64,000 nt of DNA, taken from assembly GCA_029866155.1 (NCBI GenBank), contig JARWZW010000005.1, positions 1-64,000 of the forward strand. Reading direction: 5' to 3'. Below the pieces are notes generated by a model. The model was not told the DNA's origin. It worked only from the letters and a program-made list of their open reading frames with translations, and did no database searches. Both the position numbers and the translations under genes were made by a program. This DNA is from Caulobacter sp. GTDB taxonomy: Bacteria > Pseudomonadota > Alphaproteobacteria > Caulobacterales > Caulobacteraceae. This document shows, one piece after another, positions 48,549 to 57,863 of the stretch (position 1 is the stretch's first letter; every line of letters begins with the position of its first letter).

Positions 48549-50420
48549 CTAGTCGTCGTCCTCAGCCTCTATGGGGGCATCGTTCGCAGCCTCTCCCTGG
48601 GTAAGGGCAAGCTGCTTGACGCCCAGGATTTCTGCGCCGGGAAAGGCGTCCAGGACAGACCGGACGAAGGGGTCGGCCTCGATCTCGGCCCGGGCCTCGC
48701 GCGCCTCGCGCTTCTGGCGTTCCCAGGCGGTTTCGGCCCCGCCGCCGCCATCGGTGGCCACCAGCCAGGGCTGGCCGGTCCATTCCTTCAGCCGCGAGAC
48801 CAGCCGGCCGGACAGGTTGGTCGGGGCGCCGGGAGCCGGTTCGAAGACAATGGCGCCGGGCCGGAAACTGACCAGGCGAAGATAGCGGTCGACATCCAGC
48901 TTCAGCCCGATCTCGCGCTTGGCGTCGATCAGCTTCAGGACGTCCTCGAAGCTGGCCAGGCTGGCCTGGGGTGATACGGCGGCCTGGGGCGCGGGCTGGA
49001 CCATCCGCGCCTGGGCCGAGGCCACGCCGGAAGGGCCGCCGGGCGCAGAGGGAGACCTCGGCGCACCGCCGCCGCCGGCCGGGGCCCCGGGAGTCTCGCC
49101 GCTGCGCAGGGCCTTCAGCGCTTCCTCGGGTCCGGGCAGGTCGGCGGCGTAGCAAAACCGGATCAGGGCCATCTCGACCGCGGCCGAGGGGTCCGGCGCC
49201 CGGCGCACCTCGTCATGGCCCTTGAGCAGCATCTGCCAGAGCCGCGACAGGCTGCCGGCAGAGGCCAGGGCCCCGACGGCGGCGATGCGCTGGGCCTGTT
49301 CCCTGGGCATGGCCAGCGCGTCCGGCCCCAGGGCCTTGCTGACCGCCGCCGAATGGCTGTGTTCCAGCAGGTCCAGCATGACCTGGACCGGATCGGCGCC
49401 AAAGCCCCAGAGGGTGCGGTAGGTGGTGATGGCCGGCCCCGCCTCGCCGCGCATCACCTGTTCGAACAGCTGGATGGTCTGGGACCGGTCGGCCAGGCCC
49501 AGCATGTCCTGGACGATCTTTGCCGGCACCACCTGGCCCGGGTCGGTCTGGACAATGGCCTGGTCCAGCAGGGACAGGCCGTCCCGCACCGAGCCCTCGG
49601 CGGCCCGGGAAATCAGGGCCAGGCCCTCGGCCTCGACCTTGGCGCCTTCCTTCGCGCAGATCCGCTCCAGATGGGCGGCCAGGACCGGCGGCTCAACCCG
49701 CCGCAGGTCGAAACGCTGGCAGCGGGACAGGATGGTCACCGGCACCTTGCGGATCTCGGTGGTGGCGAAGATGAACTTGGCGTGGGGCGGCGGCTCTTCC
49801 AGGGTCTTGAGCAGCGCATTGAAGGCCGCCGTCGACAGCATATGCACTTCGTCGATGACATAGACCTTGTAGCGGGCCTCGGTCGGGGAATAGCGCACCC
49901 CGTCCAGCAGCTCGCGCATCTCGTCGACCTTGGTGCGGCTGGCGGCGTCCAGTTCCAGAACATCCATGTGCCGGCCCTCGACGATGGCGGCGCAGTGGCG
50001 GCCCTCATGGCCCAGGTCCATGGAGGGCTGGTGGACCGTATCGCTCTCGAAGTTCAGGGCCCGGGCCAGCAGCCGGGCGGTGGTGGTCTTGCCCACCCCC
50101 CGCACCCCGGTCAGCATGAAGGCATGGGCGATCCGGCCGGTGCTGAAGGCGTTGGTCAGGGTCCGGACCATGGCCTCCTGGCCGATCAGGTCCTCGAAGG
50201 TGCGGGGCCGGTACTTGCGGGCCAGCACGGTATAGGCCGGCCCGTCGGCGGTGGGCGGGCCCGGCAGGGGCTGCAGCGCCTGAGCGGACGAGGCGGCGGG
50301 AGCCATCACCTCCTGGGATGGGGGAGCCGGATCGCCGAAGATGTCGGCCGTCAGGGTGTCGCGTTCCGGAGCCTCGGGCTCCGGCGCATCTTCATCCCAG
50401 GGCGGCGCAGAATCGGACAT
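48549..50420 (-). CDS. dnaX: DNA polymerase III subunit gamma/tau
   Basis: The clamp-loader ATPase and organiser of the replisome. It is 623 aa. A 60-residue acidic/proline N-terminal extension (MSDSAPPWDEDAPEPEAPE) precedes the core, as in relatives. The core starts YTVLARKYRPRTFEDLIGQEAMVRTL; the P-loop is LTGVRGVGKTTTARLLAR, followed by VYVIDEVHMLSTAAFNALLKTLEEPPPHAKFIFATTEIRKVPVTILSRCQRF (Walker B, sensor 1, SRC motif) and SVRDGLSLLDQAI (sensor 2). A Pro/Gly-rich linker then leads to the tau C-terminal domain that binds the polymerase. No A-rich slippery site for a gamma form is obvious. Confidence 0.97.
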   Translation of the reverse strand: MSDSAPPWDEDAPEPEAPERDTLTADIFGDPAPPSQEVMAPAASSAQALQPLPGPPTADGPAYTVLARKYRPRTFEDLIGQEAMVRTLTNAFSTGRIAHAFMLTGVRGVGKTTTARLLARALNFESDTVHQPSMDLGHEGRHCAAIVEGRHMDVLELDAASRTKVDEMRELLDGVRYSPTEARYKVYVIDEVHMLSTAAFNALLKTLEEPPPHAKFIFATTEIRKVPVTILSRCQRFDLRRVEPPVLAAHLERICAKEGAKVEAEGLALISRAAEGSVRDGLSLLDQAIVQTDPGQVVPAKIVQDMLGLADRSQTIQLFEQVMRGEAGPAITTYRTLWGFGADPVQVMLDLLEHSHSAAVSKALGPDALAMPREQAQRIAAVGALASAGSLSRLWQMLLKGHDEVRRAPDPSAAVEMALIRFCYAADLPGPEEALKALRSGETPGAPAGGGGAPRSPSAPGGPSGVASAQARMVQPAPQAAVSPQASLASFEDVLKLIDAKREIGLKLDVDRYLRLVSFRPGAIVFEPAPGAPTNLSGRLVSRLKEWTGQPWLVATDGGGGAETAWERQKREAREARAEIEADPFVRSVLDAFPGAEILGVKQLALTQGEAANDAPIEAEDDD

Positions 50421-50587
50421 CGGGGCCTTGCTGAAGCGCTCGTGCGTCCTTCGACACGGCCGCTGTGCGGCCTACTCAGGATGACGAACAGGGGTGGAGT
50501 CGCTTGGGTGTTCCCAGTCTATGTCATCCGGCGCGGTCGCTGAAAGGACATTGCGCCGACGCTGGACGCCGAAAATGGGGTTGAGGT

Positions 50588-50681
50588 GGAGACCGGACAA
50601 CGACCCGGAGCAAATCTCGTTGTGGCTGCTGCCTTCCGGCCCTGACCAGGTTGGCGAGCACTCCGCCCATCGCCGATCTCC
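50588..50681 (-). ncRNA. ffs: Signal recognition particle RNA (4.5S, small bacterial type)
   Basis: The minus strand contains the universal SRP tip: GGTCAGGGCCGGAAGGCAGC followed by AGCC. Flanking arms pair: GGAGATCGG (50681-50673) with CCGGTCTCC (50596-50588), and TGCTCGCC with the opposite arm around GTTGTCCGG. The length of about 94 nt matches the alphaproteobacterial short SRP RNA. It binds Ffh and scaffolds FtsY docking for co-translational membrane targeting. The exact ends are estimated from the terminal helix. It lies upstream of dnaX on the same strand, an order often seen in this group. Confidence 0.9.
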
Positions 50682-50689
50682 GAGGCCTA

Positions 50690-51143
50690 TATCGCGATTT
50701 GAACCGGCGAGCGCAAGACTTGGTCTGTGCCGGGCCTTTTCCGGCGCCTGGCGGGAGGCGACGGGGCCTTGGCCTGCGATCTCGTTTGCGCTGTTTGCCG
50801 TCGGAATCGGGCAGAAAAGGCCGCGTTGAAAATTTCGCAGGGCGACGAGGGGTGGGAAGGCCTGAAGGCCGAGACCGGAGACTGAGCCGGAAGGATGAGC
50901 AACATATTGTATTGATGAGATTTATGGGGTTTTTAGAGGTCGATCCATAGCGGGATGGCGCCTGTCCCGCCCGGCGTCCGCCCTGTCGGAAACGTCGGTT
51001 TTCTGGACGATCTTGTCCGGGTTTTTGTCGGGTTTTGTCGGGTTTTCCCTCACGCGCGACAGGGCGGTGCATGGCGTGTCCGGGAGGGCTCGAAGCGGCA
51101 GCGCCATTATAGCGGATGAGCGCCGTCAACGCCTTTTCCCCCC
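50690..51143. other. Non-coding stretch between the SRP RNA and repeat copy A
   Basis: No convincing gene in either strand. The open frames here have random-looking products and no ribosome-binding sites. A few AT-richer bases (about 50895-50930, TATTGTATTGATGAG) could hold the promoter of the SRP RNA or a boundary of inserted DNA. Short tandem repeats occur at 51013-51046 and are listed separately. Confidence 0.5.
51013..51046. repeat. Short tandem repeat, about three units of TTGTCGGGTTT
   Basis: The stretch reads TTGTCCGGGTTT, then TTGTCGGGTTT, then TGTCGGGTTTTC, three imperfect copies of an 11-12-bp unit in direct orientation, just upstream of long repeat A. Confidence 0.75.
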
Positions 51144-51492
51144 TGCTGACAGAGACTGGGGCGAGAAAGGATTTCCCCATCCCCTGCCCCTCCCGACAAC
51201 CCGCCCTGCCGCAAGCGCCGGTTTCCAGGACGGGTCTTGTCCGGGTGTTCACAGGCTTCGGTAACGAGGATATCCGGGTGGTCACAGGTTTCGGTAACGA
51301 CGAAACCCGCGCCTTGTCGGATTTTTCGTCGGGTGCGCCAGGGCGGGACATGGAGCCTCCCGGAGGCGTCGAAGCGGCAGGGGTGATTATCGCATGGTCC
51401 AGGTCAGTCCGCGCGGCCGCCCCTTGCCACCCGAAAGTCGGGGTCGGAGCCCAGGACGGGACGGGGTTCGGTAGTATTGTGTCCCCGAAACT
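51144..51492. repeat. Long dispersed repeat, copy A
   Basis: Aligns by eye with copy C from GCTGACA (51144) onward, through GGGGCGAGA, the CGCCGGTTT stretch, CACAGGTTTCGGTAACGA, CGTCGAAGCGGC and GGTCAGTCCG, ending near GTGTCCCCGAA. It differs from B and C by an internal duplication of the CACAGG-TTCGGTAACGA module (starting about 51250 and 51284) and by lacking the REP-like part that follows in B and C. Non-coding; located 87 bp upstream of the kinase start, so it could contain or displace that gene's promoter. Confidence 0.8.
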
Positions 51493-51579
51493 CGCCCTGA
51501 TTAATTGGCCGCTTACCTTATGAATATCTTATGTGCCGCCTGCCATGTCGATTAGCGGGAACTGGGGAGAGGATTCTGC

Positions 51580-54081
51580 GTGCAAGATCCGCTTGAGAGT
51601 GAACGCCTAACGGCGCTGGAACGGATGGAGGTCCTAGACTCCCCATCAGAGCCGCTGTTTGACAGCCTGACCGATCTGGCTGCGCAAACCTTCAAAACGC
51701 CCATCGCGCTGATTTCCTTGGTCGACCAGGAAAGACAGTGGTTCAAGGCCTGCGTAGGCCTCGATATCGATCACACCGCGCGGGGTGTTTCATTCTGCCA
51801 GCACGCGATTCTCTCGGATCAGGTGTTCGTCGTGCTCGACGCCGCCCATGACGAGCGGTTCCACGACAACCCCCTTGTCACCGGGTCGCCCAACATTCGG
51901 TTTTATGCCGGCGCCCCATTGATCACGCCCGAGGGGCACCGGCTGGGCGCGCTTTGCGTCATCGATACGGTGGCCCGCGAGACATTTACGGACACCGAAG
52001 CTTCGCGCCTCCAGGCAATTGCAAAGAGTGTCATGCAAGCGCTGCTCATGCGGCTTGATGTTCGCGAGCGCGAACGCATCGCGGTCGTTGCCGAACAGCA
52101 AAACAGGTTGCTCAAACTCGCCGAGGAAATGGCCGGTGTCGGGACCTGGTCATGGGATGTGGCCGCCGACCGCACGACCTGGTCTGACCAGGTCTATCGC
52201 ATTCATGGCTACGAGCCCGGCGCCGAACCGCCTGCGCTGCAAGGCGTGCTTGAGCGTTATCATCCGGACGATGCAAAGGTCTTGGCCGACCACGTTCAGC
52301 GCGCCGTCGCCGAAGGCCGCGACTACGAATTGGAGGCTCGCATCTACCGACCGGATGGCTCGGAGCGTCACATTGTCGCTCGCGGTTCTCCTCGTAGGGG
52401 CCCAAGCGGTGCGGTTGTGGCGATCCTGGGCACCTTCGTAGACGTCACCGGCCTCAAGCTCGCGGACGAAAACCTTCGTGCAAACGAGGCGCGCCTAAAA
52501 TACCTGATGGATCAGTCGGCCGACTTGATCATCCGCGTTGAGCCTGGCAAGGGCATCACCTGGGTTTCCCCGAGTTGCAGGCTCTACGGATTTGAGCCGG
52601 AGGAACTTATCGGGAGCCTGGCTCTTGAATTCTTCCATCCTGATGATCGGGCCCATCTTCAAGCGGTGCGCGCTGCACGGTTTGCAGGCCTTCCGGACCC
52701 TCCGGGAAGCACAGGTGAATACCGCGTCCGCCACAAGGACGGACGCTGGATCTGGGTTCAGGGCAACCCGACCCTGATCAGGCGCGCGGACGGCCAGGTC
52801 ATCGAGATCGTCACCATCTTGAGGGACGTGACCGCCCAGCGAGACATGGCCAGCGCCCTTGCGGCGACCCGTGACGCGGCTCAGGAGGCCGCTCAGGTGA
52901 AGGCCGACTTCTTGGCCAACATGAGCCACGAAATTCGCACGCCGCTGACCGGGATGCTGGGGTTTGCCGGGCTCCTGGAGGCCCTGGAAGATCTGTCTCC
53001 GACAGCCAAGAAATACGCCGACCGCATCGCCACCAGCGGCCAGGCGCTGTTGTCGGTCGTCAACGACATCCTGGACTTTTCCAAGCTGGACGCCGACCGG
53101 ATAGAACTCGACACCCACCCCTTCGATCCAGAGGCGCTAGTGGCTGAGTCGCTGGAGCTGGTGGCGGCCCAGGCTGCGGCCAAGGGGCTCCTGGTCTATA
53201 AGGATTTCCGCGGGCCCCTGCCGGCGGCTGTCCTCGCCGACAGCTCGCGGGTTCGCCAGGTGCTGCTGAACCTGCTGACAAACGCCATCAAGTTCACCGA
53301 AGCGGGCGCCGTGACGGTCACGGCTCGATACCAGAGCGAGGACGGCGGGCGTCTGTTTCTAAGTGTGACCGACACCGGCATTGGCGTCCCTCAAGACCGT
53401 CTGAATCGGCTCTTCCAGCGGTTCTCCCAGGTCGACGGCTCGAACACCCGCCAGTACGGCGGCACTGGACTTGGACTGGCGATTTCGAAGGGACTTGTCG
53501 AAAGGATGGGCGGCCGGATCGAGGTGGAGAGCCTCGAGGGGGAGGGCTCGACCTTCTGGTTCAGCATCGATGCGCCCATGGTCGAGCTGGAGAAGGCGCC
53601 AGCCGCAGCAACGCACCAGCCTGACGACAATCTGGCCACGGCACGGATGTTGTTGGTGGACGATGTGGCGATGAACCGCGAACTGGTGAGGATCATGCTT
53701 TCGCCTTTCGGCTTCGACATCACCGAGGCGGGGAACGGGGCCGAAGCGGTAGCTGCGGCGATGGCCGGACCGTTCGACCTGATCCTGATGGACCTGCAGA
53801 TGCCGGGCATGGACGGTCTGGCGGCGACAAAGGCGATCCGGTCCAGCAGCGATCTCAACCGCGACACCCCCATCGTCGCCTTGAGCGCCAACGTCCTGCC
53901 CATCCACCTCGCAGAGTGTCTAGAGGCCGGCATGAACGACCATATCGCCAAGCCCATTGTTCCGGCCGAACTGCTCACGAAAATCGCGCAATGGACCGAG
54001 CCGAACGAGTTCAGCGACGAGGCGGACGCTGGAGCCGGTTTGCTGGATCGGTGTTGTCCGGGTGGTCACAGGTTTCGGTAA
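51580..54081 (+). CDS. Hybrid histidine kinase: GAF-PAS-PAS-HisKA-HATPase-REC
   Basis: A soluble 833-aa sensor; no membrane segment is seen. GAF domain about residues 25-160 (FKTPIALISLVDQERQWFKA, FYAGAPLITPEGHRLGALCVID). PAS 1 about 180-295 (GTWSWDVAADRTTWSDQVYRIHGYEP). PAS 2 about 300-420 (DQSADLIIRVEPGKGITWVSPS, GRWIWVQGNPT). HisKA has His450 in NMSHEIRTPLTGMLGFAG. HATPase has NLLTNAIKF, DTGIGVP and GGTGLGLAISKGLV. The receiver has Asp738 in LILMDLQMPGMDG and the Lys of IAKPI. It starts with GTG after GGGGAGAGGA. No output partner or regulator is adjacent. The last about 16 residues (from GLLDRCCPGG) are encoded by repeat copy B rather than by kinase sequence, so the original C-terminus has been replaced. 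Confidence 0.95.
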   Translation: MQDPLESERLTALERMEVLDSPSEPLFDSLTDLAAQTFKTPIALISLVDQERQWFKACVGLDIDHTARGVSFCQHAILSDQVFVVLDAAHDERFHDNPLVTGSPNIRFYAGAPLITPEGHRLGALCVIDTVARETFTDTEASRLQAIAKSVMQALLMRLDVRERERIAVVAEQQNRLLKLAEEMAGVGTWSWDVAADRTTWSDQVYRIHGYEPGAEPPALQGVLERYHPDDAKVLADHVQRAVAEGRDYELEARIYRPDGSERHIVARGSPRRGPSGAVVAILGTFVDVTGLKLADENLRANEARLKYLMDQSADLIIRVEPGKGITWVSPSCRLYGFEPEELIGSLALEFFHPDDRAHLQAVRAARFAGLPDPPGSTGEYRVRHKDGRWIWVQGNPTLIRRADGQVIEIVTILRDVTAQRDMASALAATRDAAQEAAQVKADFLANMSHEIRTPLTGMLGFAGLLEALEDLSPTAKKYADRIATSGQALLSVVNDILDFSKLDADRIELDTHPFDPEALVAESLELVAAQAAAKGLLVYKDFRGPLPAAVLADSSRVRQVLLNLLTNAIKFTEAGAVTVTARYQSEDGGRLFLSVTDTGIGVPQDRLNRLFQRFSQVDGSNTRQYGGTGLGLAISKGLVERMGGRIEVESLEGEGSTFWFSIDAPMVELEKAPAAATHQPDDNLATARMLLVDDVAMNRELVRIMLSPFGFDITEAGNGAEAVAAAMAGPFDLILMDLQMPGMDGLAATKAIRSSSDLNRDTPIVALSANVLPIHLAECLEAGMNDHIAKPIVPAELLTKIAQWTEPNEFSDEADAGAGLLDRCCPGGHRFR

Positions 54082-54540
54082 CGACGAAACCCGCGCCTTG
54101 TGAGATTCTATGGCGGGCGGGACAGGGCGGGACAGGGAACCTCTCGGGGGCGTCGAAGCGGCCGGGTTGACTATCGCATGGGGCCGGTCAGTTCGTGCGG
54201 CGTCCCCCTGCACCCCGGCGGCGGGGGACGGGCGGCCGGGCGGCCGGGCGGCCCGGCGGAGTCCAGTATGGTGTCCCCGGAACTGCTGCTCGGAATCCTT
54301 CTCCCTGCAGGGAGAAGGTGTCGGCGAAGCCGACGGATGAGGGGCCGCACCGGCTGTAGTGTCTGATCCCGAAAACCTTTCAACACCGGCCGCGCGGAAC
54401 GACCCCCTCAACCGTCAGCCTACGGCTGCCACCTTCTCCCTCGAGGGGAGAAGAGGCCTCAATAAGCTTGAACGCGAAATCTGCTGCCGTGGCGAACCTG
54501 GCGGGTCGACCTGCCCTGGCCGCCCCCCGGCCCCTCGAAA
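54033..54540. repeat. Long dispersed repeat, copy B
   Basis: About 500 bp, directly repeated as copy C around the DUF3422 gene. It starts inside the kinase gene's last codons (GCCGGTTTGCTGGA at about 54034) and runs through GGTCACAGGTTTCGGTAACG, TCGAAGCGGCCGG, GCATGGGGCCGGTCAG and GTGTCCCCGG. It then has a REP-like unit (perfect 22-bp palindrome 54297-54318 and stem GTCGGC-GAA-GCCGAC 54320-54334), then GCGCGGAAC...GACCCCCTCAACCG and TCGACCTGCCCTGGCCG. The GGTTTCG...CGAAACC hairpin at about 54071-54091 also occurs in copy A. Confidence 0.85.
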
Positions 54541-54677
54541 ACCCGGGCCAAAGCCCGAGAACGGTGGGAGTCATGTAATAGTGTCCCCAGATTTGGTTCG
54601 ATTGCCGCGCCCTCTGTCAGGCCTCTGTGCTTAAATGCCGCCTTGACGGAACTTTACGCTCGGCTACCTGATCTTTG

Positions 54678-55964
54678 ATGGTCTCAGGAATATCCACGAA
54701 TTGGCGCTACCACCCGCAGCGCGATGCCCTGCTTGCAGAGGCTCACGCTCGCCCTTTCACTCCCCTGGTCGGCCCCGCGCTTGTGACGCGAATCGCCACG
54801 CTTTCAGGTCAGGCCGGCGAGCAAGGCGACCGCGCCCATATGGCGGCGCTGTGCCGCCGCCTTGGGCAAGCCGAACCGGGTCCCACAGCCCGTTGGTGTG
54901 GCCTTGAGGCCGGGACATGGCACCTGCGATGGGAGCGCCACACTGAGTTTTCGACCTGGACCTTCTTCCGTTCGCCTGCAGGCAAAGCTCTCTTCGCCGA
55001 GACCGCTCTCGACATGGCGCCGATTGACTGGCTTGGAGCCTGGCCAGGCGACGTTCTGGTCGCAACAAGGCTGGAAGTGTGGGGACATCTAGACGTCAAT
55101 GCTGCCGCAGCCCTGTTTGGCGTCGGAGTCACCGGCGGCCGACTGGTGGACAGCGACACGATTGTTCTGACTGATTTCAGGGCTGATGCGGAAGGCATGA
55201 CGAGGTTTCTGCTGTTATCCGACGCCGTTGGCGACGGCGCCCTAACCGGGCGACTTGTTCAGACCCTGCTGGAGGTCGAAACCTATCGTCTGATGGCTCT
55301 TCTTGCCTTTCCTGTCGCGGGGGAGTCAGCCTCAGCGCTCTCTTGCATCGAGGCCACAGCGGCGGACCTTGCCCACCAACTCGCCGAGGATGCCGATCCA
55401 GATGCCGACCGGCTGTTGCTGGATCGTCTGGCGGCCCTTGCTGGTGAGACCGAGGCGCTGATCAGCCGTACGAATTTCCGATTTGACGCAGCCGCAGCCT
55501 ACCACCGCCTCGTGCGCGAGCGGATCGAGCGGCTGCGAGAACATCACATCGAGGGTCTTCTGACGCTGGGCGAGTTCATGCAGCGTCGTTTGGACCCGGC
55601 GATGCGGACCTGCGATGCGGTCGCGGAACGTCAGCGAGCAGCCATCGCCCGGATCGCGCGCATGACCCAGATGCTCAACACCCGCGTCGAGGTCGCTGCC
55701 GAGGCCACAAGCGCCGCCCTGCTGGCATCAATGGACCGTCGCGCCGGTGCTCAGCTGAGGCTGCAGCAGGCTGTCGAGGGACTGTCAACCGTGGCTATCG
55801 CCTACTATGCGGTTGGCCTGTTGCTCTTGCCGTTGAAGGGATTGGAGCGAATATGGACCGGGTTCGACGCCACGCTCGGCGCGGGCTTGCTAACCCCGCT
55901 TGTGTTGGCGGGGGTCTGGCTTGGACTCCGAGCATTGCGCGAGCAATTCGCCGATAGGGGCTGA
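54678..55964 (+). CDS. DUF3422 family protein
   Basis: A 428-aa protein of the DUF3422 family, frequent in alphaproteobacteria and of unknown function. The N-terminal half (residues 1-230) has RYHPQRDALLAEAHARPFTPLVGPALVTRIA, WERHTEFSTWTFFR and LVDSDTIVLTDFRADAEGMTRFLLL, VETYRLMALLAFPVA. The C-terminal half is helical and ends in two hydrophobic segments (LSTVAIAYYAVGLLLLPL and LGAGLLTPLVLAGVWLGLRAL), as in CorA-like or other membrane-anchored proteins. It is bracketed by direct repeats B and C: B ends about 140 bp before it, and C begins on its stop codon. Start ATG 54678; ribosome site weak. Confidence 0.88.
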   Translation: MVSGISTNWRYHPQRDALLAEAHARPFTPLVGPALVTRIATLSGQAGEQGDRAHMAALCRRLGQAEPGPTARWCGLEAGTWHLRWERHTEFSTWTFFRSPAGKALFAETALDMAPIDWLGAWPGDVLVATRLEVWGHLDVNAAAALFGVGVTGGRLVDSDTIVLTDFRADAEGMTRFLLLSDAVGDGALTGRLVQTLLEVETYRLMALLAFPVAGESASALSCIEATAADLAHQLAEDADPDADRLLLDRLAALAGETEALISRTNFRFDAAAAYHRLVRERIERLREHHIEGLLTLGEFMQRRLDPAMRTCDAVAERQRAAIARIARMTQMLNTRVEVAAEATSAALLASMDRRAGAQLRLQQAVEGLSTVAIAYYAVGLLLLPLKGLERIWTGFDATLGAGLLTPLVLAGVWLGLRALREQFADRG

Positions 55965-56500
55965 CAAGGACCGGGGCGAGACGGGATTTCCGCATCCCCG
56001 GCCTCTCCGAACCACCCGCCCGGCCGCAGGCGCCGGTTTGCTGGACGGGTGAAGTCCGGGTGGTCACAGGGTTCGGTAACGAGGAAGTCCGCGCCTTGTC
56101 AGATTTTATGGCGGGCGGGACAGGACGGGACAGGGAACCTCTCGAGGGCGTCGAAGCGGCCGGAGTGACTATCGCATGGGGCCGGTCGGTTCGTGCGGCG
56201 TTCCCCTGCGCCTCGACGGCCAGGGGCCGGGCAGGGTTCAGGGTGGTGTCCCCGAACTGCGGAATCCTTCTCCCTGCAGGGAGAAGGTGTCGGCGAAGCC
56301 GACGGATGAGGGGCCGCACCGACCTACATCCATGATCATGAAGAAGACTGCCGGCAGCGGCCGCGCGGAAAGACCCCCTCAACCGACCCGCTGCGCGGGC
56401 CGCCCCCTCCCTCGGGGGGAAGCGTGGCTTCAATCAGCTTGAGCGCGAAATCCGCTGGGGTGGCGAACCCGGCGGTTCGACCTGCCCTGGCCGGTTCCCG
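55960..56500. repeat. Long dispersed repeat, copy C
   Basis: The left end, GCTGACA at 55960-55966, includes the DUF3422 stop codon TGA (55962-55964). The unit then matches copy A at its left half and copy B over its whole length, including the REP-like unit (perfect 22-bp palindrome 56266-56287, then GTCGGC-GAA-GCCGAC) and the tail TCGACCTGCCCTGGCCGG to about 56495. It ends directly before the nudC region. It is non-coding; a longer minus-strand frame here is open by chance or decay. Confidence 0.85.
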
Positions 56501-56557
56501 GTGAAATCGGGCAAGGCCCCTCTGGCGCCGGTCCCGGTTCCGGTGGCAAAAGGCGGC

Positions 56558-57481
56558 ATGTCCATTTCGCAAATCGCCAACATGTTCACCGGCAATCCGC
56601 TCGACCGCGCCAGCGATCGGCGGTCCAATCCCGCATGGCTGGCGGAAAAGCTGGCCGAGCCGGGGGCCCTGGCCCTGCCGCTGTGGAACGGCCAGCCCTT
56701 TACCGAGACCAGGGATGGCAAGCTGCAGCTGGCCTATCTGTCGGCGGCCATGGCCCAGGACCTGTCGGCGGGCTGGGAGCGGTTGCTGTTCCTGGGCCTG
56801 TGGAAGGAGACGGCGGTCTTTGCCCTGGACCTGGAGGGCGGGGCCGACCCGGCCGACGGGCCCCTGCAGGGACTGGGGCGGTTCCAGGACCTGCGGGCCA
56901 TCGCCATGGCCCTGCCGGGGTCGGAATCGGCCATCGCCGCAACGGCCAAGGGCATGTTCGAATGGCGGCGCAAGCATCGCCATTGCGCCAGCTGCGGCGA
57001 GGCCAGCCAGGTGGCCGAGGGCGGCTGGAAGCGGGTCTGCACCGCCTGCAAGGCCGAGCATTTCCCGCGCACGGACCCGGTGTCGATCATGCTGGCCACC
57101 CATCAGGGCCGTTGCCTGATGGGTCGCCAGGCCATGTGGCCCAAGGGCATGTTTTCCGCCCTGGCCGGGTTCCTGGAGCCCGGTGAAAGCATCGAGGAAT
57201 GCTGCGCCCGGGAGCTGATGGAAGAGGCGGGCCTGAGGGCGACGAAGGTGCGGTATCACTCCACCCAGCCCTGGCCCTATCCGTCCTCCCTGATGATCGG
57301 TCTGATCGCCGAGGTCGACAGTGATGAGGCGACTCCCGACCAGACCGAGCTGGAGGCCGTGCGCTGGTTCACCAAGGCCGAGGCCCGGGCCCTGCTGGCC
57401 GGGGAACTTCCGGGCCTGTTCTGCCCCCCGCCCCTGGCCATCGCCCACCAGCTGCTGAAGAGCTGGGCGGAGGAAGACTGA
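56558..57481 (+). CDS. nudC: NAD+ diphosphatase (NADH pyrophosphatase) NudC
   Basis: A Nudix hydrolase that cleaves NAD(H) and removes the NAD cap from RNA 5' ends. From ATG 56558 it is 307 aa. Motifs: NMFTGNPLDRASDRR at the N-terminus, zinc ribbon HCASCGEA...CTACKAEHFPRTDPVSIML with four Cys, the Nudix box GFLEPGESIEECCARELMEEAGL, and the NADH-family signature STQPWPYPSSLM. The open frame begins at GTG 56501 or ATG 56582; 56558 fits the best N-terminus and has an AAAAGG-like site. Repeat C ends right before it. Confidence 0.93.
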   Translation: MSISQIANMFTGNPLDRASDRRSNPAWLAEKLAEPGALALPLWNGQPFTETRDGKLQLAYLSAAMAQDLSAGWERLLFLGLWKETAVFALDLEGGADPADGPLQGLGRFQDLRAIAMALPGSESAIAATAKGMFEWRRKHRHCASCGEASQVAEGGWKRVCTACKAEHFPRTDPVSIMLATHQGRCLMGRQAMWPKGMFSALAGFLEPGESIEECCARELMEEAGLRATKVRYHSTQPWPYPSSLMIGLIAEVDSDEATPDQTELEAVRWFTKAEARALLAGELPGLFCPPPLAIAHQLLKSWAEED

Positions 57482-57863
57482 CCCTCAAGACCGGGTGGCC
57501 AAAATCTGACTCTTGAGTCCCGCAGGTCGCACCCGGCCGACGAAAACCCCAATGTCTGCTTTGCGAACCGAACTCATTGAGTAGAATCGACCCTTAGCGG
57601 TCCTTCATCTGTCCAAACCTCGAGGGCCGCGGTGCGCCAACAGCGGAAATTGAGGCGTCGCCAGAAACTCGCCGCTCGCATTTCAAGAGGCGGTCCAACG
57701 TGAGAGACCGCTTTCCAGATCCAAACCGAGGCGAAACAACCTCTGTAGTGCGTCGCGCTTCACGGCCTATGGCGTCCAGGATCTGCTCTGAAGTGCAGCT
57801 TCGCCGACGCTGGGGAGCGCCAGACACCGGGAGGTGGACTAGGCCCGGCACTAGCGTCTCCGT
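57482..57863. other. Gene-free flank, left side of the catabolic module
   Basis: About 380 bp without a supportable gene. The minus-strand frame 57594-57851 (85 codons) has no ribosome site and an unremarkable composition. The text includes AATGTCTGCTTTGCGAACC, resembling a degenerate repeated sequence type I have seen in this group of genomes. Nothing clearly functional is seen. Confidence 0.5.

Follow-up and report, generated by a model that had tools for sequence, protein, structure and literature searches.

The window analysed here, a stretch of 64,000 nucleotides from a Caulobacter sp. contig, contains three related long repeats, A, B and C, which stand in one orientation and alternate with single genes: A, a hybrid sensor histidine kinase gene, B, a DUF3422 gene, C and then nudC. 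This locus raises the question of whether such a layout marks a gene-capture device or has some other origin. A first-pass annotation of the window had likened it to an array of gene-plus-repeat cassettes and had assigned the repeats to no known family. A relative of the repeats has now been found in a small-terminase-like (TerS) gene, together with a wider class of such elements in another species, which that annotation did not foresee. The family comprising A, B and C is designated here as the R1 element; it is about 210–350 bp long, with 33-bp repeats and its own putative promoter, which points leftward in the window. With little more than balanced confidence, we lean towards reading R1, and the alpha and beta elements of the second species, as TerS-cognate, pac-like recognition elements placed across the chromosome, which are also points of gene gain and rearrangement. 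At the level of sequence, this reading is carried by the two-block homology of R1 and TerS-like genes and the motif common to the upstream regions of TerS-like genes, cluster genes and elements; by two element families of the second species that correspond to the 3′ arrays of two different TerS paralogs, one each; by the conservation of array and tail against randomised spacers; and by R1 sites at which the sister genomes differ in gene content or show rearrangement joints.

R1 and the small-terminase-like genes

The genome of the window (G000) was compared with its sister genome G017, in which the DNA flanking R1 is 89–91% identical, and with a second species, G014. The search for further copies proposed by the first-pass annotation was productive: a 17-mer of the repeat, with at most 2 mismatches, was found at 29 sites on 14 contigs of G000, and the reversed control gave 0. 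The R1 block CACAGGKTTCGGTAACG is the unit of the 33-bp tandem repeat; all 21 intervals between units no more than 60 nt apart, in the fetched loci of G000 and G017, measure 33 bp. R1-like DNA was detected in 4 of the 61 sampled genomes of the genus, strongly in G000 and G017 and weakly in G028 and G049. Relatives named in the DNA scan are the Brevundimonas subvibrioides metagenome-assembled genome (MAG) 32-68-21, the Caulobacteraceae MAG ZE-Jul18-50 and Brevundimonas sp. AAP58. No match to R1 was found in plasmid or phage records, and the 20-base unit did not occur in viral contigs.

On two G000 contigs, C61 and C50, R1 ends enclose a gene located on the strand read by the R1 promoter. The C61 protein is small-terminase-like (Pfam Terminase_2, 1e-18; PHROG terS, 1.7e-19), and a profile of 14 TerS-like proteins matches the solved small terminases 3zqp (1e-14), 4zc3, 2cmp and 21di. 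The comparison of R1 with two TerS-like genes revealed two colinear blocks, with E-values down to 6e-22 and nothing matching between them, while the reversed control gave one weak match (0.009). The first block comprises the promoter and leader to just before the start codon, and the second is the 3′ linker containing the 33-bp units. Both blocks are present in nine of the ten R1 copies tested; copy B shows the unit block only. By sequence, R1 resembles a TerS gene minus its coding body, in which the promoter/leader and the 3′ repeat linker are retained in order. The array lies near the promoter in the elements and about 600 nt from it, at the 3′ end, in the TerS-like genes. The TerS-like gene reads the 33-bp unit in one frame, and the short open reading frame (ORF) that begins at R1's own start reads it in another.

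Stand-alone TerS-like genes number three in G000, five in G014, four in G038, three in G049 and four in G019; G017 has contig-end pieces of at least two, and one weak match each was found in G007 and G050. Some of these genes, among the matches listed, occupy matching chromosomal positions across species. A search of phage records with the TerS protein returned 17 records, all below 60% identity and none covering 80%, and no relatives were found in viral contigs.

The motif RTGSGATAAT-N5-8-CCGCTTCG, mostly followed by ATAAG, is located just before the TerS-like genes that have a readable start. In the elements, the promoter/leader takes the form RTGSGATAAT, 5–8 nt, CCGCTTCGA[TAAG], and the same motif precedes TerS-like genes, structural-cluster genes and dispersed elements. 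It resembles an extended -10 promoter and may act as one. The strict motif was found at 98 sites in 8 genomes, with 0 in the reversed control; these are pattern matches, of which all 26 in G014, all 5 in G049, most of those in G000 and G017, and six of the nine in G019 were read (three at 3.949–3.952 Mb were left out). A stricter pattern applied to 199 genomes of the family gave matches in four, all of this genus, and its reversed control gave one match (G156, another genus).

The motif-preceded cluster genes include those for a head-tail connector (Pfam, 7e-109) and a tail fibre. The connector is followed by capsid (1e-66) and tail proteins, and TerL (PHROG, 1.6e-87), a GcrA-like gene and an S24-type repressor are located nearby. 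Host genes sit between the parts of this podovirus-like cluster, which in G000 lies on contig C12 (L186 10761–19501 and L187 1–17001) among host metabolic genes. Genes for replication or integration were not noticed in the portion of the cluster that was read, where no search for replication genes was made. Motif-bearing cluster genes are present in G000, G017, G019, G014 and G038 and, by eye, in G049 and G040. The cluster is a candidate for an unrecognised system similar to a gene transfer agent (GTA). By eye, the same podovirus-like cluster is also present on two motif-bearing IMG/VR contigs (L252, L253, L254); there it is interleaved with bacterial-looking genes, and these contigs may be chromosomal rather than viral.

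Phased arrays in the second species

Of the 26 motif sites in G014, five belong to TerS-like genes, two to cluster genes and 19 to dispersed elements. Fifteen of these elements, termed alpha, contain 5–7 CTTCA/CCTCA repeats spaced by 11 or 22 bp, except for one off-phase first step of 13, and have a conserved tail after the repeats. The remaining four, termed beta, contain CCACC-type repeats at an 11-bp phase. The 3′ end of the TerS gene on contig C74 carries alpha repeats, with five spacings of exactly 11, and the alpha tail, while the TerS gene on contig C46 carries a beta array with spacings of 33, 11, 11 and 11. No cross-match was found when the alpha motif was sought in the C46 3′ stretch and the beta motif in the C74 3′ stretch. 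Two further elements with 11/22-bp lags of their own kind were found in G038.

Self-similarity peaks at a lag that is a multiple of 11 in 15 of 15 alpha elements, 4 of 4 beta elements, 13 of 17 R1 copies of G000 and 14 of 17 of G017, versus 2 of 15 and 2 of 17 control stretches taken 700 nt away; only strict-promoter copies entered this test, so window copies B and C are not among them. The phase in G014 is not that of a peptide repeat, because 11 and 22 are not multiples of three.

The conservation analysis covered all 15 alpha loci and, in G000, 12 of 17 strict-pattern R1 loci. The mean pairwise identity of the alpha elements is 0.88 in the repeats and 0.79 in the tail, compared with 0.32–0.37, near the composition level, in the upstream, spacer and downstream stretches. 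The promoter letters are partly conserved by construction, since they belong to the search pattern; the repeats, the tail and GATAAG lie outside the pattern, and the conservation of the promoter/leader extends outside the searched letters. Recent copying alone is an unlikely explanation, since such copies would be alike throughout, whereas the alpha elements keep only promoter, array and tail.

The window locus and probable gene gain at R1

In the window, the three repeats in one orientation form a 210-nt direct-repeat family at 51239–51448 (74%), 54023–54232 (reference) and 56021–56230 (88%), and the blocks named in the first-pass annotation were all found in the same order within them. An additional 147 nt upstream are common to A and C (51145–51291 and 55960–56106, 80% identity). 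As described earlier, B and C share an REP-like unit (repetitive extragenic palindrome), which is 62 nt long and identical (54291 and 56260), and a 147-nt tail (54384 and 56355, 80% identity). With B as the query against the genome, C was recovered with an E-value of 2.7e-126 and A with 8.2e-44, far above chance. The inventory of three copies was correct as far as it went and incomplete, as a degraded fourth copy lies at 51035–51101 (family D2). There are two 33-bp units in A and one each in B and C. The gene ends can be placed more exactly than in the earlier description: the kinase stop codon lies inside B (ORF end 54081), and the DUF3422 stop (55964) abuts the start of C. The features are as follows; the strand of an R1 copy is the direction that its promoter reads.

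48549–50420, minus strand: dnaX-like gene, native left flank (named from its sequence, without a family search)
50584–50682, minus strand: bacterial small signal recognition particle (SRP) RNA, native left flank
51035–51118, minus strand: degraded fourth R1 copy upstream of A, without a 33-bp unit; 11-bp TGTCGGGTTTT runs just to the left, by eye
51142–51500, minus strand: R1 copy A; 33-bp units at about 51240–51310, promoter/leader at 51369–51397, GTGTCCCC end motif at 51479–51486
51580–54081, plus strand: hybrid sensor histidine kinase gene (GAF, PAS, HisKA, HATPase, receiver), between A and B; looks acquired
54030–54286, minus strand: R1 copy B, truncated on the kinase side, with one unit; promoter/leader at 54153–54181, GTGTCCCC at 54271–54278
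54291–54450, no strand assigned: REP-like element R2 after B, two facing palindromes, a separate dispersed family
54451–54530, no strand assigned: tail after B, common to B, C and the single G017 R1 locus
54675–55964, plus strand: DUF3422 gene, between B and C; looks acquired
55960–56256, minus strand: R1 copy C, with one unit; promoter/leader at 56151–56179, GTGTCCCC at 56246–56253
56260–56420, no strand assigned: REP-like element R2 after C, two facing palindromes, the same separate dispersed family
56421–56501, no strand assigned: tail after C, matching the tail of B and the single G017 R1 locus
56501–57481, plus strand: nudC (NADH pyrophosphatase), native right flank

An Rfam scan of window positions 50000–57500 at the gathering threshold gave the SRP RNA as the sole match.

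In G017, the corresponding region is continuous and reads dnaX, SRP RNA, a single R1 with REP, and nudC. In five more relatives, nudC adjoins the native left flank (dnaX and SRP in G049, G014, G019 and G038, SRP in G040), and no R1 match was found there; G049 and G040 keep an REP remnant. The kinase and DUF3422 genes are present at this locus in G000 only. No DUF3422 homologue and no kinase match at E ≤ 1e-150 was found in any of the six relatives searched. Both genes have atypical codon usage, scoring 0.07 and 0.15 per aa where the median of 221 genes is 0.35. The DUF3422 region matches a Brevundimonas MAG with 89% DNA identity over 54618–55968 only, a span covering the gene itself with 57 bp ahead of the ORF and 4 bp after the stop. 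Given that only G000 has both genes, that no such matches were found in the relatives, that the MAG match is bounded by the gene and that the codon scores are low, the kinase and DUF3422 genes look acquired, and either both were gained in the G000 lineage or they were gained earlier and lost from G017 by recombination between A and C. As to deletion in G017 versus insertion in G000 at this locus (C19), the diagnostic columns lean weakly: of 25 columns, the G017 R1 is nearer to A in 13 and to C in 8.

The cassette idea holds in part. The genes between the copies do vary between relatives, rather than keeping fixed neighbours in all of them, while an integron-like device finds no support. The supposed tie between repeats and gene ends is likewise partial: gene 3′ ends abut B, C and the C67c copy, but on their repeat side 16 of 20 R1 copies face the start, not the end, of their nearest gene.

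The R1–gene–R1 arrangement recurs elsewhere. It encloses a FitA-like/PIN toxin–antitoxin pair at C67, also in G017, a 220-aa gene without a Pfam or PADLOC match at C5, and a RelE/helix-turn-helix (HTH) pair in G017, for which the Pfam run was made on the 91%-identical G000 copy; this G000 copy adjoins the TerS-like gene of C50. PADLOC identified three defence-like genes beside R1 copies, for an AbiLi-like ATPase, a TIR-domain protein and a type IV restriction enzyme; together with a helicase fusion noted by eye, they adjoin R1 promoter ends at G017 C207 and C40 and at G000 C67 and C31.

Of 11 repeat-side-anchored R1 pairs of G000 and G017, seven differ in their promoter-side content, one of these seven also on the repeat side, and no pair differs on the repeat side only; 5 of the 9 pairs that can be judged clearly carry this one-sidedness. 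By hand count, the changed pairs are C19, C16, C44b, C46, C5b, C31a and C67a, and the unchanged ones are C27, C44a, C47 and C63. C19 is readable from either side, C67a also differs by about 0.8 kb on its repeat side, and C46 was compared over only 2.5 kb in G017. Two promoter-side-anchored pairs, which stop at contig ends, were excluded from the judgement. In addition, two G017 R1 joints (C74 and C40) unite, within several kb, sequences that lie on different G000 contigs at other R1 copies. These differences provide moderate evidence that R1 is a recombination hot spot; a dedicated enzyme is not supported. They also show that a gene–repeat array can arise without an integron integrase. At C16 (L236, 37760–38000 and 41260 onward), a diverged second copy of a native gene's 3′ end flanks a 968-aa repeat-rich gene, as if this gene had been inserted with duplication of the neighbouring DNA.

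Proposed recognition elements and the alternatives

According to the reading of R1, alpha and beta as TerS-cognate sites, an element would consist of the promoter/leader of a tamed-phage regulon and a short helically phased array (11 bp; 33 = 3 × 11 in R1), corresponding to the opening and closing blocks of a chromosomal TerS-like gene whose coding body is omitted. Helix-phased repeats suit a protein ring or helix with DNA laid round it, and this leads to the pac-like reading: a TerS-like oligomer would bind the phased array, with the DNA laid round the ring and neighbouring HTH domains meeting it once per turn. In SF6-type small terminases, the distance between neighbouring HTH motifs is approximately one turn of DNA, and a wrapped arrangement has been discussed (PMC4737164). 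The elements may serve the phage-derived machine as pac-like sites for recognition and possibly for the start of packaging. Accessory DNA would then have been joined at R1 by homologous recombination between R1 copies, possibly aided by cutting or packaging there, to give the A–kinase–B–DUF3422–C arrangement. The link from a pac-like function to this cassette array is the weakest step.

Several points weigh against this reading. Most published TerS proteins reportedly bind DNA weakly. Binding of pac DNA by the DNA-binding domain of SF6 was weak and showed no preference for sequence (PMC4737164), and a review states that wrapping cannot account for specificity (PMC9611059). G000 and G017 are draft assemblies. 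At C50, the gene is disrupted close to its start, and no Pfam or PHROG match was obtained for the ORF that begins at a later start. The TerS frame is open across many R1 copies, and peptide-level descent of the 33-bp unit is possible. The strongest lag is a multiple of 11 in 8 of 18 TerS-like genes and not in the other 10 (the set excludes the G215 genes, the G017 pieces and G014 C173, which a contig end truncates); three of these eight are related G000 genes, and two, from G038, are not significant against shuffles. Apart from lags 33 and 66, R1 shows only a weak excess, and the reading of 33 as 3 × 11 is partly carried over from G014 to G000. Among the motif sites read in G049 (5 of 5) and G019 (6 of 9), TerS-like and cluster genes were found but no dispersed element, so the elements are not essential to the TerS/cluster system. 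Gene context is opposite in the two species, with convergent gene ends beyond alpha elements and next-gene starts beyond R1. Codon scores on the two sides of R1 do not differ (p = 0.23). In a rule-based count of spacers with both flanking genes mapped (C19, C5 and C46 excluded), 2 of 6 R1 spacers had changed versus 2 of 44 others, which is a modest enrichment (p = 0.066), and the change at C44 ends in another repeat.

The layout may well be ordinary, and we hold this to be a serious possibility, short of probable and compatible with the other explanations: dispersed repeats would undergo ectopic homologous recombination, and accessory genes would collect in long intergenic gaps, with R1 no more active than the REP elements. 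The modest enrichment speaks for it, as do the C16 insertion of G017, which has an REP-like palindrome at its far end, the bordering of the C44 insertion by another REP family and the slightly closer kinship of the single G017 R1 to A than to C. The C44 insertion itself is 1.24 kb long (C44:121916–123153, L185), is absent from G017 and is flanked by REP-like GATGCTCCCCCAGG-type copies. This explanation accounts poorly for change that falls on the promoter side and never on the repeat side alone, and it leaves the TerS relation, the phase and the species-specific pairing unexplained. That the elements are parasites similar to miniature inverted-repeat transposable elements (MITEs), namely functionless, non-autonomous, internally deleted TerS-like genes spreading by an unknown route, we consider fairly unlikely. 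The two-block homology does resemble an internal deletion, copies occur at many sites, one of them interrupting the kinase end, and descent from a parent gene would account for the matching arrays. However, the array phase and the tail are kept while spacers and flanks are near random, which points to selection; because of this conservation contrast in G014, the weight of a spreading deleted parent was lowered, not dropped. The related gene, moreover, encodes a TerS-like protein and not a transposase, and the Y1 (REP-associated) transposase, found in five of the six genomes searched, is absent from G000. At C19, C16, C44 and C67, no terminal inverted repeats or target-site duplications were noticed by eye, without a systematic scan or a clean empty site.

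It is also conceivable, though improbable in our view, that the elements are TerS- or regulon-controlled promoters whose RNA runs through the array into the neighbour, sense for most R1 copies and antisense for most alpha elements. The conserved promoter/leader fits this, and so do the positions of the neighbours: in 16 of 20 R1 copies of G000 the promoter-like motif points to the start of the next gene, 0.4–1.3 kb away, and at 13 of the 15 alpha loci it is directed at the end of a convergent gene, 143–184 nt beyond. Yet the distance of about 600 nt between array and promoter in the TerS-like genes is unlike an operator, the orientation of the neighbours is opposite in the two species, and regulation alone needs no helical phasing of 5–7 repeats. 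A site-specific cassette system of the integron kind, with R1 as the attachment site, is largely refuted and must be regarded as extremely unlikely, although genes and repeats do alternate in one orientation and gene ends abut the repeat starts at B and C. No integron integrase scored over the cut-off in any of the six genomes, the sub-threshold matches being like those of all 14 control genomes; attC core motifs (RYYYAAC/GTTRRRY) are absent from A, B and C; single-strand folding of R1 is not unusual (z from -1.3 to +1.2); and R1 copies also occupy loci unchanged between G000 and G017.

The TerS-cognate reading can be extended to a domesticated podovirus-like GTA with several TerS paralogs, at least some of which would have their own phased pac-like sites. 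Packaging would start there, particle DNA would have an element end, and incoming DNA would recombine at copies of the same element, forming a chromosome-wide network of one-sided import. Such a network is speculative and, on balance, unlikely; it would explain both the mostly promoter-side change and the R1–gene–R1 arrays, several of which carry toxin–antitoxin or defence-like genes.

Among known systems, the pac sites of SPP1/SF6-type phages come to mind, as the TerS family is profile-related to solved small terminases, including 4zc3, the SF6 domain in the cited excerpt (PMC4737164), and as the array and the promoter motif are parts of TerS-like genes. Unlike a pac site, of which the phage genome has one, the elements exist in about 20 chromosomal copies with an exact 11-bp phase; the arrays lie at the 3′ end of TerS genes, and the paralogs are paired by sequence with arrays of their own. 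With the GTAs RcGTA and CcGTA, the system shares phage-derived structural genes of which some parts are located elsewhere on the chromosome, as the cited passage reports for CcGTA (PMC11150451). It differs in its podovirus-like cluster, in TerS-like proteins that retain the N-terminal DNA-binding region and in its candidate recognition sites. According to the cited section, GTAs have no known pac equivalents and the RcGTA TerS lacks a specific DNA-binding domain (PMC6854486), which would make pac-like sites an arrangement distinct from that of GTAs. P22 pseudo-pac sites are likewise chromosomal sites used by a phage packaging machine, as outlined in the cited text (PMC11226127). In the elements described here, by contrast, the phase is fixed, the tail is conserved and a promoter-like motif is present; they look selected rather than accidental.

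The parC of plasmid R1 has an 11-bp repeat length. The parC/ParR plasmid centromere combines direct repeats, a promoter and an oligomer with DNA wrapped round it, in the part cited (PMC5016525), whereas the present elements are dispersed chromosomal copies with a TerS-like partner; the likeness is one of geometry. MITEs and small bacterial repeats are also dispersed intergenic elements of 100–200 bp, and the cited portion describes one kind as a minisatellite inside a MITE (PMC4596501); here, no terminal inverted repeats were noticed by eye, and the related gene is TerS, not a transposase. Integron cassettes share the order of gene and repeat in one orientation and differ by their integrase and attC features. 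The Caulobacter CIR repeats have GANTC in stem-loops, with no promoter mentioned in the cited part of their description (PMC2229807). The assignment of R1 and R2 to CIR was rejected, as GANTC lies near only 7 of 25 R2-unit palindromes (fetched loci) and R1 has no unusual fold.

No description of elements of the present kind was found in the open-licence literature, as far as titles and the beginnings of abstracts go. What appears to be new is a set of dispersed chromosomal elements that pair one promoter-like motif with TerS-matching phased arrays and may be recognition sites. The recognition of specific DNA by small terminases is still unclear and controversial in the quoted part of a review (PMC9611059), and the three TerS groups (C61/C50, C74 and C46), paired by their sequences with different phased arrays in many natural copies, offer a test set for the ring-wrapping model. 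If the elements do start packaging, some gene-transfer systems would be non-random, with a fixed map of start points, and expectations about which genes move would change.

Some minor observations concern the ends and companions of R1. R2 is a second dispersed family of about 160 bp with two facing CCTTCTCCC palindromes and is frequently located beside R1. A TATRGTGTCCCCRGAATT-like motif ends many R1 copies about 100 nt beyond the promoter motif; it was seen at 13 places, for example at 51479, 54271 and 54581 of the window, and also directly before truncated R1 copies (G000 C5 and G017 C271). Of the 13 GTGTCCCC occurrences at the fetched loci, eight lie 68–112 nt away from the point where the R1 promoter motif starts. 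GTGTCCCC may be a transposon end, but the Y1 transposase loci show a different repeat. At one of these loci (L243 of G019, 1119–2007), the Y1 transposase gene is located amid four GGTGCGTGTCCCCAATTA copies in both orientations.

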